42,813 nt of DNA, taken from contig JACQKT010000021.1 of the NCBI GenBank assembly GCA_016204355.1, positions 1 to 42,813 on the forward strand, read 5' to 3'. The notes beneath the pieces are model-generated. The model was given only the letters and a program-made list of their open reading frames with translations, made no database searches and had not been told where the DNA came from. The stretch is from Candidatus Liptonbacteria bacterium (GTDB lineage Bacteria > Patescibacteriota > Minisyncoccia > UBA6257 > 2-01-FULL-56-20). Shown in pieces: positions 866 to 5,210 of the stretch (position 1 is its first letter; each line of letters opens with the position of its first letter). The position numbers were made by a program, and so were the translations under genes.

Positions 866-1423
866 TTATACCTTCTCCAAATAAATCTTTTCGGACGAAG
901 CGCGAAGTTTAAGTTTTTGCGAAAAAGCCAGAGCAAGCTCGTAAGCTCCGAAAAGAATTGCGGAATAAACAACATCTCCTATGAGCATATTCTTGAAGAA
1001 CGGCAAAGCCATGGCAAAAGATTCAAGTAATCCGGCAGCCGAACGTTCGTACATCGTTCCGAATTGCCAAACCGCCCAGTTGGTAAGAACAAAGAAAAAC
1101 GCCGATGAAGACGCCGCTCCGAGCAGAACGCTTACTGCAGTCTTATGTTTGCGGACGAGAAGCCCGATAAGGCTGGCAACGGCGAATCCGGCATAAACCG
1201 AAAGCATTATCCGCAAATCGTAAAAGCCGATGAATAAATCGGATATCAGCATTGTAGCGCCGACGGTGAAAAGCGAATATCTGATGCCGAAATAAACCGA
1301 GGCGAAAAGAGATATTGCCACTATCGGGGTCATATTCCAGGCATGAGGCATGAAACGGCTGGCAACTCCGGCGGCGATCAGCAAGAAAATTATCAGAAAC
1401 GAGAATTTTTTGGACATTTTCAT
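866..1423 (-). CDS. DUF6580-like / ECF-transporter S-component-like membrane protein
   Basis: 185 aa, several predicted TM helices, RFMPHAWNMTPIVAISLFA...FGIRYS motif typical of this family; start overlaps the stop of the upstream gene. Confidence 0.7.
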   Translation of the reverse strand: MKMSKKFSFLIIFLLIAAGVASRFMPHAWNMTPIVAISLFASVYFGIRYSLFTVGATMLISDLFIGFYDLRIMLSVYAGFAVASLIGLLVRKHKTAVSVLLGAASSSAFFFVLTNWAVWQFGTMYERSAAGLLESFAMALPFFKNMLIGDVVYSAILFGAYELALAFSQKLKLRASSEKIYLEKV

Positions 1424-3609
1424 ATAACCGATAGGACTATGGAAACTAGTTTCGACACAAATGAACTAAATGCATTCGCCGTAAAACTTATTAGATTATA
1501 ACCGAAAGAAATGATGTTTGCTAAGCTGGATTTCTCCCGTTTATCCGGCTGAGTTGAAGATTCCAAAACCAGAATCGGTCGGGTGTCGGCTTGCTCCTCT
1601 GCAAAATCGCTCTTCGGCGCCGGCTGGGCGGGGCTGGATTTAATTTCCGCAACGTTTGATTTTGGAACAATGCTCTCCAGTTGAGGCGTTGATGTTGCCG
1701 TTATAGAGGAAACAACGTTTTCAATTATTTCAGCCGACGAAGTAGAACTTTCTGTCGGAATCGTTGTTGAGGCGGAAACGGCCACGGAAGAAGTTCCGTT
1801 TTGATTTTGCGAACCTCCTCCGGAAGAGCCCGGAACGGAAACAACTGGAGACGTCGCCGGGGCCGGTTTCGCGAAAGAATGAAGCAAATCCCACCAGGTT
1901 TTATTGAGTGCCGCGGGAATCGCATAAGATGTCGCCCATATTCTTGAATTCAAATCCGTTGACGTGCTTTCAATCCCCCCGTCGGCGGCTTGCAAAGAAT
2001 AAAGATAATCGTAAGGAGTGCTGTAATTTTTCGTCCAGTTCAACTCCGGTTCGCGAAGCGCCGTTATCGCCTGTGCTGCCCAGCTTGTCGAATAGCTTGT
2101 TCCGAATCCCCCGTCGGAATTCTGATGTGCGGCCAAATATGCCCGCGCCCTCGATATTGCACCGGGAACATCCGCGCCCGACGTGTTTTGCGAAAGCACC
2201 TGAATGGCGGCGGCCGTTAAATCCACGCTGTCTTCCCACGAACCGTTTATTAGCTGCTTACTTAAAACAAACGAATTAATTTTTTGGATAATCTCGTCCC
2301 CACCATAAGAATAGCCTGCCCTTACAAGCGGAAATAGTGCGAATATGTCGTCATTGACAAGCCCCGCGTCGCCGACCTGTGTTCCGTCGAACTTGTCGAT
2401 TATTTTTTGAATGTAATCCGCCGATGCGCCGCTGTACGGATTTATTCCCAAAGCCATAAGCGCCATGGCGTGTCTTTCGTAATCCGTCACGGCCGACATT
2501 CCACTGTTTGCCGATTTCAAATATTCCGCCAAATTAGCAATCGAGCCTCCGGAGCCACCGGCAAGCGCGATTGCCACCCAGTCGGTGTAAAGAAGCGGAC
2601 CGAAAGAGCCGTTTTCCAGCTGATGCGAAAAAAGGAACTGCTGGGCTTTGTTTACGTCGACATTGTGATGAACGACGACCCCGCCCTCGCCCCCGCCACC
2701 CGCAGAAACCGCCGGCGCGATTTGATGGGCTTCCACAACAAGCAAGTCCGTTGTCGGAAAATAAAAATCTTCCTGAAGGCCGACTTGGTACGTTCCGGTT
2801 GCGTTCAAAGTAAAAGCAGCCTGGCCGTTTTTGTCTGCCGTAGACGTGGCTATCTCTATCGGAGCAAACGGATTGTCCGGATTCTGCTGCACAACGCCGA
2901 TTGTAAGGCCGGGAGTGGGATTATAAGAGTCGCTTGAAGGAACGTAGATTTCGGCCGTCGCGGTAACCGGCGAACCTACATTTATGGTTGAAGACGAAAG
3001 AGAAACGCGCCTGGGATAGCCGTAAAAGAAAAATATGTTTTCGCCTCCCGCCAAAAGATACGAGTCCGCTCCGAATCCCGGAACATTGCCATTAACTGCA
3101 TATTGCCAGTTGTCGCAAGCTTCATCGGTTGCCGTAATGCACTTTACATAAAACGCGCTGAAAGAAGCGAAGTATTGGAGATTCGATATCGAAAATTCCG
3201 GTTGCGCCGCATCTGCCGAAACAAGCGCCGCCAGTATGCTTGCCGCCTTGATTTCCACAGATGTTCCGTCCGTGGCGATGACTGTCGTCGTCGCCGTATC
3301 GGAATCGGGAACGGCTACCTCTCCGCTCCAGATTACCGAAGCTCCGTTTCTGATGTTGAACGTTGCCGAGCGAACGGTGGTCGTTGCGTCCGATATTGTT
3401 GACGTAGAGTCAATCGGGTCGGTCGACGTGGCCGTCGAAGTCGTGTTGTCCAACAATATCGGGGTTGATGTTGAATTGTTCGTCTGGTCGGTGGAACTTG
3501 AAGTCGAAGTGGAATCATCGGCAAAAACCGGAGAATAAAACAAAGCAAAGACGGCAAACGAAATCAAACAAACGCCGCGCAATTTGAAGTTTTTTGTGGA
3601 TATTTTCAT
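1420..3609 (-). CDS. Secreted/anchored DUF4430 + prenyltransferase-like alpha/alpha-toroid protein (transcobalamin-like architecture)
   Basis: Signal peptide; Ser/Thr-rich linker; DUF4430-like segment (WQYAVNGNVPGFGADSYLLAGGENIFFFYG); toroid repeats (QLENGSFG, QLINGSWE, QNSDGGFG, QAADGGIE); C-terminal hydrophobic segment. Confidence 0.75.
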   Translation of the reverse strand: MKISTKNFKLRGVCLISFAVFALFYSPVFADDSTSTSSSTDQTNNSTSTPILLDNTTSTATSTDPIDSTSTISDATTTVRSATFNIRNGASVIWSGEVAVPDSDTATTTVIATDGTSVEIKAASILAALVSADAAQPEFSISNLQYFASFSAFYVKCITATDEACDNWQYAVNGNVPGFGADSYLLAGGENIFFFYGYPRRVSLSSSTINVGSPVTATAEIYVPSSDSYNPTPGLTIGVVQQNPDNPFAPIEIATSTADKNGQAAFTLNATGTYQVGLQEDFYFPTTDLLVVEAHQIAPAVSAGGGGEGGVVVHHNVDVNKAQQFLFSHQLENGSFGPLLYTDWVAIALAGGSGGSIANLAEYLKSANSGMSAVTDYERHAMALMALGINPYSGASADYIQKIIDKFDGTQVGDAGLVNDDIFALFPLVRAGYSYGGDEIIQKINSFVLSKQLINGSWEDSVDLTAAAIQVLSQNTSGADVPGAISRARAYLAAHQNSDGGFGTSYSTSWAAQAITALREPELNWTKNYSTPYDYLYSLQAADGGIESTSTDLNSRIWATSYAIPAALNKTWWDLLHSFAKPAPATSPVVSVPGSSGGGSQNQNGTSSVAVSASTTIPTESSTSSAEIIENVVSSITATSTPQLESIVPKSNVAEIKSSPAQPAPKSDFAEEQADTRPILVLESSTQPDKREKSSLANIISFGYNLISFTANAFSSFVSKLVSIVLSVI

Positions 3610-3616
3610 GGTTTAA

Positions 3617-4159
3617 TTACAATTTTTCATATTTCCATTCGACCGAATCGCCAGACTGGAGTTCGTATTGTGAAGCACCGACGTTCGAATATTTTCCGTT
3701 GACATAGAGCGTCCAATACTTGCCTCCGGAATTCGGGACGTTGTTTATTTCCCGGACGAAATATCCGATACCGGAATAATATTGGCTTTTGAAAGTGAAA
3801 TCGGTTGTGGACGCCAACTTTTCCATCAAATCATAAACGGTTGAACTCGCGGACATTTCTCCCGAGTAAGAAAACTTTTCCGCAACGAACGAAACTTGTA
3901 TTTTTTTGGCATCCGAATTAACGGCGTTATAATTTTCCGATTCAACCGCGGCGGGCGCCGAAACATTTCCGGCAATTTCGGATGTTTCGGGCTTTGCCGA
4001 ACCGACAACCTGCGGAAAATTTTCTACGGCGCTCGCTATTTCGCTTTGCCGTTGCATCGCGGTAATCGCGCCCGAATAATACTTCGTTCCGAAAAAAATC
4101 AGAAAGACAGCCGAAATCGCGCATACGGAAACGAGAATTATGAATAATTTTTTCTTCAT
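3617..4159 (-). CDS. DUF4430 domain protein, N-terminally anchored
   Basis: MKKKLFIILVSV TM/signal; C-terminal GGKYWTLYVNGKYSNVGASQYELQSGDSVEWKYEKL; start trimmed from the track's 4192 because the longer ORF reads through a terminator hairpin. Confidence 0.75.
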   Translation of the reverse strand: MKKKLFIILVSVCAISAVFLIFFGTKYYSGAITAMQRQSEIASAVENFPQVVGSAKPETSEIAGNVSAPAAVESENYNAVNSDAKKIQVSFVAEKFSYSGEMSASSTVYDLMEKLASTTDFTFKSQYYSGIGYFVREINNVPNSGGKYWTLYVNGKYSNVGASQYELQSGDSVEWKYEKL

Positions 4160-4164
4160 GAAAC

Positions 4165-4185
4165 AAAAAATCCGCCCCGGGCGGA
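4165..4185 (-). terminator. Intrinsic terminator (riboswitch expression platform)
   Basis: Minus strand TCCGCC-CGG-GGCGGA followed by TTTTTT, directly upstream of ATG at 4159. Confidence 0.8.
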
Positions 4186-4245
4186 AGTTCAATATCGTCG
4201 ATATTGGATAAGCCGAAAAGGCCTACTTCCTGCTCGGGAAACTAT

Positions 4246-4378
4246 GCTATTTGATGACCGGGCTTGTTCCTTATCCTTCGATAAACTCAGGATCTGGACT
4301 TTACCGTTGCGGCACAGCGGAGGAATCTAACCTCGCTTCCTGTCCTTTTTGGACTCGAGCCTTTGCTCGACAAATAAC
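4246..4378 (-). promoter_or_regulatory. Cobalamin riboswitch aptamer
   Basis: Minus strand GGAAGCGAGGTTAGATTCCTCCGCTGTGCCGCAACGGTAAA matches the cobalamin core (GGAA..GGTG..GAATCC..GCTG..CCGCAACTGTAA); closing P1 GTTATTTG/CAAATAGC; AAGCCCGGTCATC in the 3' junction. Confidence 0.8.
4273..4293. repeat. Palindromic dispersed repeat ATCCTTCGATAAACTCAGGAT inside the riboswitch
   Basis: Terminal inverted ATCCT/AGGAT; same family as repeats at 6563, 26474, 35622. Confidence 0.65.
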
Positions 4379-4400
4379 ACTAAGGGGATTTTATGCGGAC

Positions 4401-4427
4401 AAAAAGCCCGGCGTCAATTGCCGGGCT
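4401..4427 (-). terminator. Intrinsic terminator
   Basis: Minus strand AGCCCGGC-AATTGAC-GCCGGGCT then TTTTTG. Confidence 0.75.
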
Positions 4428-4766: not shown

Positions 4767-5210
4767 TTAAGGATTACCCATTTTCCTGAACCACTTGCCG
4801 CGTTCGGTCTTTGCCGAATAATAAAGCGCGGTCAGAAAAAGAAATGCCAGAAGTTGGTTTGTCCAAAAGTACCATATTTGCTGTTCGTAAAAACCGAAAG
4901 CCGAGATCGCTTCCAGTTCGAAAAATAATATTCCATAAATTGATATGACAACGTTCAGAAGTGCCACCCAGCGGTGTTCGGGATTTGTAAACCCAGCTAC
5001 CAATCCGAGGAAAATCATCGCCACTATGTAATTTGAGACAGGGGTACGAATGAAATCTTTGAAAAACGGAAGAGTAATAAGTGTTATTACGGCAATCGCA
5101 AAAAAAATTTTTCTGACATTGTCCCCGTAATAGTGCAAAAGATGGTGGGGCCGTTTCCATACTCCCGCCTCGCGCCCTGTATCCGAAGAACTGCTTTCGA
5201 AATTGTTCAT
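4767..5210 (-). CDS. Hypothetical membrane protein (about 4 TM)
   Basis: 147 aa hydrophobic ORF. Confidence 0.6.
   Translation of the reverse strand: MNNFESSSSDTGREAGVWKRPHHLLHYYGDNVRKIFFAIAVITLITLPFFKDFIRTPVSNYIVAMIFLGLVAGFTNPEHRWVALLNVVISIYGILFFELEAISAFGFYEQQIWYFWTNQLLAFLFLTALYYSAKTERGKWFRKMGNP

Follow-up and report, generated by a model that had tools for sequence, protein, structure and literature searches.

A 42,813-nt stretch of DNA from Candidatus Liptonbacteria bacterium (contig JACQKT010000021.1 of assembly GCA_016204355.1; genome approximately 90% complete), referred to here as the window, carries a candidate operon for the capture and import of vitamin B12 by what is probably a small, host-dependent bacterium. 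Three tightly packed genes lie on the minus strand, downstream of a cobalamin riboswitch. They encode, in order, a DUF4430 protein, a protein in which DUF4430, immunoglobulin (Ig)-like and alpha/alpha toroid domains are joined, and a DUF6580 membrane protein (Table 1). The first two genes are 7 nt apart, whilst the second and third share 4 nt (1420–1423, ATGA). This confirms a sequence-only reading of the same DNA, which had described three closely spaced genes after a riboswitch with the last two overlapping; the open reading frames (ORFs) lie where it had placed them. Only one further genome of the genus was sampled (G148, locus L013), hereafter the sister genome; it shares the gene order and the leader element of the window, and its central protein is 54–55% identical to the window orthologue.

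Table 1. Features of the operon and its leader in the window
Feature	Position	Strand	Basis
Possible sigma-70-type promoter, TTGACG-18-TAAAAT, just upstream of aptamer	4388..4417	-	10/12 consensus matches; 0.6 expected by chance in region; predicted
Cobalamin riboswitch aptamer (RF00174-like)	4203..4379	-	22.4 bits; core GGACAGGAAGnGAGGTTAnATTCCTCCnCTGTGCCGCAACGGTAAAGTCC and TTCCCGAGCAGGAAGT conserved in sister genome
Putative antiterminator pair	4183..4230	-	GGAAGT (4230–4225, aptamer 3' end) complementary to ACTTCC (4188–4183, terminator 5' arm); window and sister genome
Intrinsic terminator TCCGCCCGGGGCGGA-TTTTTTG, between aptamer and first start codon	4171..4185	-	GC hairpin followed by T-run; sister counterpart CCGCTCGCGGCGGGATTTTTTG at same place
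DUF4430 protein (transcobalamin C-terminal-like), N-terminally membrane-anchored, 180 aa	3617..4159	-	PF14478, E 2.6e-16; transmembrane segment at residues 5–23
Two-domain protein, 729 aa: signal peptide, DUF4430-like beta domain, Ig-like domain, alpha/alpha toroid, C-terminal hydrophobic tail	1420..3609	-	Pfam, AlphaFold, Foldseek, membrane prediction; orthologue in sister genome
DUF6580 six-helix membrane protein, S-component fold, 185 aa; proposed solitary corrinoid importer	866..1423	-	PF20221, E 3.1e-42; AlphaFold; Foldseek; profile match to 6fnp_A

The leader RNA

The aptamer is the single RF00174 match detected by a genome-wide search of the source genome. In the sister genome the same element is found at the same position (28.6 bits), and alignment of the two leaders shows that both the aptamer core and the terminator which follows it are conserved. 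Because the sister genome carries this element in the same place, with a conserved core and terminator, the window element is, by comparison of sequences, a divergent cobalamin-riboswitch-like element and more than a chance match. The complementarity between the 3' end of the aptamer and the terminator is that expected of a transcription-terminating OFF switch, and would allow the leader to act as one. A TTG start at 4192 was considered for the DUF4430 gene and rejected as unlikely, since it sits upstream of the terminator.

DUF4430 proteins and the cobalamin carriers of animals

In animal intrinsic factor and transcobalamin, as the sequence-only reading stated, an alpha6–alpha6 barrel is combined with a DUF4430-type beta domain and B12 is held between the two. 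A profile (A3) built from 45 patescibacterial DUF4430 proteins alone was searched against all PDB chains. Its best matches were intrinsic factor (E 5e-8), transcobalamin-1 (3e-7) and transcobalamin-2 (1e-5), and its top eight were all intrinsic factor, transcobalamin-1 (haptocorrin) or transcobalamin-2; E-values for these carriers ranged from 5e-8 to 9e-5. In the cobalamin-capping beta domain the aligned stretch takes in the YW...G..Y region. The second DUF4430 copy of the window, in the two-domain protein, scores 18.7 bits and lies under the Pfam cut-off of 23.8; PF01122 (Cobalamin_bind, the eukaryotic cobalamin-binding family) likewise scores 16.7 bits on the toroid, under its cut-off of 25. 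Both families pass in the sister protein (27.0 and 26.5 bits, respectively).

AlphaFold places a beta domain, an Ig-like domain and an alpha/alpha toroid (approximately 1885–2673 in the window) in the 729-residue protein, with a mean pLDDT of 86.4 and a pTM of 0.60 at which domain placement is uncertain. Intrinsic factor, haptocorrin and transcobalamin are likewise single secreted proteins in which a DUF4430 beta domain is joined to an alpha/alpha barrel. The window protein differs from them in running beta–Ig–alpha, the reverse of the alpha-then-beta order of intrinsic factor, and its operon adds membrane anchors and a further, single-domain DUF4430 protein. The intrinsic factor order does occur in distant patescibacterial relatives (L014, L016–L019 and L126), so that the DUF4430–toroid fusion recurs in both domain orders. 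Six more distant relatives belonging to the same order were inspected (L014–L019), and the toroid precedes DUF4430 in several. Riboswitch matches over cut-off, from three Rfam classes (AdoCbl-II, AdoCbl and Cobalamin), are found at L014, L016, L018 and L019, and at L018 the genes for the corrinoid adenosyltransferase BtuR and the class II ribonucleotide reductase NrdJ adjoin the toroid/DUF4430 locus.

In relatives with the toroid–DUF4430 order, DUF6580 is replaced by a secreted Ig-like protein of approximately 175–200 residues with a C-terminal membrane helix (L014 6066–6650, L018 8870–9463, L019 9422–9949 and others), which may be a partner of this subtype. The toroid–DUF4430 protein at L014 (6604–8472) matches NCBIfam NF053823, the Streptomyces SCO2321 family, at 77.8 bits (E 7.5e-22; cut-off 300), hinting that this actinobacterial family may bind corrinoids too. 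A search of plasmids for DUF4430 gave matches in Collinsella and Burkholderia only, and no B12 context was seen in the neighbourhood of the Collinsella plasmid gene.

Gene neighbourhoods and the riboswitch regulon

DUF6580 is present in 105 of 380 sampled patescibacterial genomes. Its neighbourhoods were surveyed in two partly overlapping sets, the first of 60 loci with flanks of up to 6 kb (several shortened by contig ends) and the second of 61 named loci treated as patescibacterial, a few of which are labelled just 'bacterium'. In the first set the neighbours include DUF4430 at 46 loci, NrdJ at 37, a corrinoid adenosyltransferase at 39 (33 BtuR and 6 PduO), thioredoxin at 20 and a toroid at 9. 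In the second, DUF4430 is found at 49 loci and a toroid at 24, mostly in the DUF4430–toroid–DUF6580 arrangement of the window. At L141 and L146 the order NrdJ–DUF4430–DUF6580–PduO parallels the published nrdJ-cbrS-cbrT-pduO cluster of Lactobacillus, which includes the gene for the S-component CbrT and in which cbrS may, as a guess, be a DUF4430 gene. The patescibacterial order DUF4430–toroid–DUF6580 was also met at L133, in a contig labelled Actinomycetes bacterium which is probably mis-binned or the product of transfer.

The regulon was approached from the other side by searching 62 DUF6580 genomes with RF00174 and RF01689, genome-wide and blind to genes. Forty distinct cobalamin riboswitch sites were found in 37 of these genomes, and 35 of the sites are followed within 700 bp, on the same strand, by a DUF4430 or toroid gene; many of these sites are not close to DUF6580. 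One other site precedes NrdJ, and four have no such gene, one of these lying between PduO/NrdJ and an unassigned ORF. Some sites score under the Rfam cut-offs and single sites may be wrong, although no individual site is essential to the pattern. Since a genome of such size has few DUF4430 or toroid genes, the association is far beyond chance. The synteny of riboswitch, DUF4430 and DUF6580, which the sequence-only reading had put forward for survey, recurs. A 443-residue ORF without a Pfam match (L116 4590–5921, minus strand) directly follows the top-scoring RF00174 site (54.9 bits) and a PduO/NrdJ pair, and is read as a member of the B12 regulon.

DUF6580 as a probable S-component

The AlphaFold model of DUF6580 has six helices (pLDDT 94.3, pTM 0.87). 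All its confident Foldseek matches are S-components of energy-coupling factor (ECF) transporters: BtuM bound to hydroxycobalamin comes first, followed by 4huq_S, TmRibU, ThiT and a pantothenate S-component, with probabilities of 0.96–1.00, TM-scores of 0.53–0.64 and modest E-values (0.03–0.7). The BtuM match has an E-value of 0.03, a probability of 1.00 and a TM-score of 0.56. Because the E-values are modest and the TM-score of 4huq_S exceeds that of BtuM, the modelled structure supports the S-component fold and not the ligand. A DUF6580 profile searched against the whole PDB gave one sequence match, 6fnp_A (E 1.2e-4), and none to BtuM. The 6FNP entry is the ECF-CbrT cobalamin transporter (PMC5997447), and its chain A, a membrane protein of 182 residues, would by size be CbrT. 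This S-component from Lactobacillus delbrueckii, the only PDB protein matched by the profile, takes cobinamide as well as cobalamin (PMC5997447). It works with an ECF module, in contrast to DUF6580, in whose genomes EcfT was not detected.

BtuM of Thiobacillus denitrificans offers a second comparison. It shares the S-component fold, and published work provides a precedent for B12 transport by this protein without an ECF module. Among 130 distinct DUF6580 sequences, N30, D62, F110, N115, Y125 and F142 are invariant and R23 and H27 nearly so, in place of the conserved cobalt-ligating cysteine of BtuM; H27 as the cobalt ligand is a guess.

Neither genome of the genus yielded EcfT (PF02361) or FecCD/BtuC in a profile search in which ABC ATPases were outside the survey, and the ECF module which the sequence-only reading had proposed looking for elsewhere was thus not recovered as far as EcfT is concerned. 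Across the 62 DUF6580 genomes EcfT was over cut-off in none, as against 10 of 14 control genomes in the same search, whilst an FecCD-type permease (PF01032) was over cut-off in four. As EcfT is undetected both in the source genome and over cut-off in all 62, DUF6580 is probably a solitary S-component, like BtuM, functioning outside an ordinary ECF transporter. The source genome encodes NrdJ (641 bits, C24) and BtuR (172 bits, C20); since these are present, and EcfT and FecCD undetected, the operon is the best candidate for B12 entry. Co-occurrence of NrdJ and DUF6580 over the 380 genomes was not used, as TIGR02504 matches class I enzymes too and NrdJ is far commoner than DUF6580.

DUF6580 in Ignavibacteria and Bacteroidetes

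In these diderm organisms DUF6580 adjoins TonB-dependent receptors for which the best NCBIfam model is TonB-B12 (277.6 and 176.9 bits; equivalog cut-off 599.7), and at L169 a periplasmic binding protein with partial similarity to BtuF. Cobalamin riboswitches, all over cut-off at 35–88 bits, are found at 10 of 13 such loci; the DUF6580 genes at L202 and L183 are immediately preceded by one. Where cells have an outer membrane, DUF6580 is thus paired with BtuB-like receptors, as BtuM is with BtuB, and in Patescibacteria with DUF4430/toroid proteins. The patescibacterial arrangement resembles the BtuB/BtuG system of Bacteroides in that capture at the surface or outer membrane is followed by import under cobalamin riboswitch control, but differs in having DUF4430/toroid proteins in place of the TonB receptor. 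DUF5074 beta-propeller proteins adjoin DUF6580 and BtuB-like receptors at L177 (2760–3815), L204 (5105–6424) and L202 (9664–10776), suggesting that these propellers may be surface B12 binders; BtuG is a protein of this kind.

Proposed mechanism and alternative explanations

We consider it likely, with a probability of about 0.85, that the operon encodes a B12-repressed system for surface capture and import, in which binding and transport are predicted and DUF6580 serves as a solitary B12 S-component. From the observed operon, riboswitch family, homologies, folds and gene context we infer a ligand, a binding geometry, a route and energy source for transport, and a direction of switching. At low intracellular cobalamin the leader RNA would let transcription through the terminator; at high levels the aptamer would fold and free the terminator hairpin, turning the operon off, as the complementarity in the leader suggests. 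Both DUF4430-bearing proteins would be exposed at the cell surface, the smaller held by its N-terminal membrane helix and the larger, which has a signal-peptide-like start, by its C-terminal hydrophobic tail. There they would bind cobalamin or other corrinoids, which would probably be held, as B12 is in intrinsic factor, between the toroid and a DUF4430 beta domain. DUF6580 would receive them and, like BtuM, may move them through the membrane with no recognisable ECF motor. BtuR would then make adenosylcobalamin for NrdJ, so that uptake supports the synthesis of DNA precursors. The suggestion in the sequence-only reading of a surface corrinoid binder with an S-component-like membrane protein under B12 control is supported by the profile A3 matches, the first place of BtuM in the fold comparison, the sequence match to CbrT and the regulon.

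A number of findings weigh against this interpretation. The RF00174 match in the window is weak, its 22.4 bits being under the gathering threshold of 31.5 (E 0.0015 for the 0.7 kb searched, 3.5e-4 genome-wide), and a DUF4430 neighbour is missing at approximately 20–25% of DUF6580 loci. The 130 DUF6580 sequences have no conserved cysteine column, and thus no counterpart of Cys80, the axial cobalt ligand of BtuM. Furthermore, CbrT without its ECF module failed to support growth of an E. coli test strain (PMC5997447) and, by analogy, an S-component without a motor is for that reason not automatically a transporter. The assembly, at some 90% completeness, may also lack a motor which the organism possesses. 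DUF6580 might accordingly serve an ordinary ECF transporter as its substrate subunit, with a T subunit and ATPases which are encoded elsewhere and too divergent for PF02361, or which are absent from the assembly; the S-component fold of DUF6580 and its resemblance to CbrT, which needs an ECF module, would fit such a role. We regard this as unlikely in view of the contrast between the DUF6580 genomes and the controls in the EcfT search, and of the BtuM precedent. Of the label 'ECF-type S-component' given in the sequence-only reading, the fold therefore stands, whilst membership of an ordinary ECF transporter probably does not. It is less likely still that the operon imports another riboswitch-linked ligand, such as cobalt, the cobalamin precursor cobinamide only or another vitamin, rather than complete cobamides. 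S-component ligands are diverse, riboflavin and thiamin S-components score comparably in Foldseek and CbrT itself accepts cobinamide, but the neighbouring NrdJ and BtuR/PduO use finished cobamides and the diderm loci couple DUF6580 with BtuB-like receptors.

The toroid is the remaining point of difficulty. In Foldseek the top matches of the two-domain model are class II terpene cyclases and the thioester-containing domain (TED) of complement, and the best 50 contain generic toroids only; a sequence profile of the toroid searched against the PDB likewise favours those two groups rather than intrinsic factor. By sequence and fold it is a generic alpha/alpha toroid, and no specific match to intrinsic factor is claimed; such a link is drawn because of the DUF4430 domain and the one Pfam match in the sister protein, and a corrinoid-binding role for the toroid is suggested by its fusion to DUF4430 and its regulation by riboswitches. 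The likening of the two-domain protein to intrinsic factor holds for the DUF4430 domain, and the structural comparison does recover the beta and toroid domains, but for the toroid PF01122 and the PDB and fold comparisons point different ways, and the domains run in the reverse order. These matches could also mean that the protein is a toroid enzyme of terpene-cyclase type, or a surface protein akin to TED and alpha-2-macroglobulin, which merely shares the operon. This we judge very improbable: a signal peptide and membrane tail would be out of place in a cytosolic-type isoprenoid enzyme, many unlinked cobalamin riboswitch sites have a toroid gene immediately downstream, the DUF4430 fusion recurs in both orders and the sister protein scores over the PF01122 cut-off.

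Wider implications

Import by S-components is already known, as are extracellular binders of B12, and the pairing of the two here appears to be new. No description of the pairing, of a role for DUF6580 or of a patescibacterial regulon was found in the open-access literature searched, nor any mention of DUF6580; most subscription papers lie outside that literature, and novelty is provisional. The analysis proposes a function for DUF6580 (PF20221), a family present in approximately a quarter of sampled Patescibacteria and in Bacteroidetes and Ignavibacteria, and for bacterial DUF4430/toroid proteins. As candidates for solitary B12 S-components, the DUF6580 proteins would form a second family, which brings into sharper focus the question of how transport proceeds without an ATPase. 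The pattern of capture and import recurs across many members of the phylum Patescibacteriota, which suggests that these reduced cells, often equipped with an adenosylcobalamin-dependent ribonucleotide reductase, rely on scavenged B12 for DNA synthesis and hence on a host or community. The DUF4430/toroid proteins may be a prokaryotic counterpart to the fold of animal intrinsic factor and transcobalamin. To a broader proposal we give an even chance: that DUF6580 is a widespread ECF-independent family of cobamide importers, fed in Patescibacteria by bacterial homologues of intrinsic factor and transcobalamin, that these homologues and the animal carriers share a cobalamin-capture ancestry predating animals, and that the cobalamin riboswitches of these bacteria control almost nothing else.

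Neighbouring features

Upstream of the riboswitch, on the minus strand at 4767–5210, lies a gene for a membrane protein of 147 residues without a Pfam assignment, which is kept in the sister genome (L013 8770–9201). A terminator-like hairpin at 4427–4405 lies between this gene and the B12 operon.

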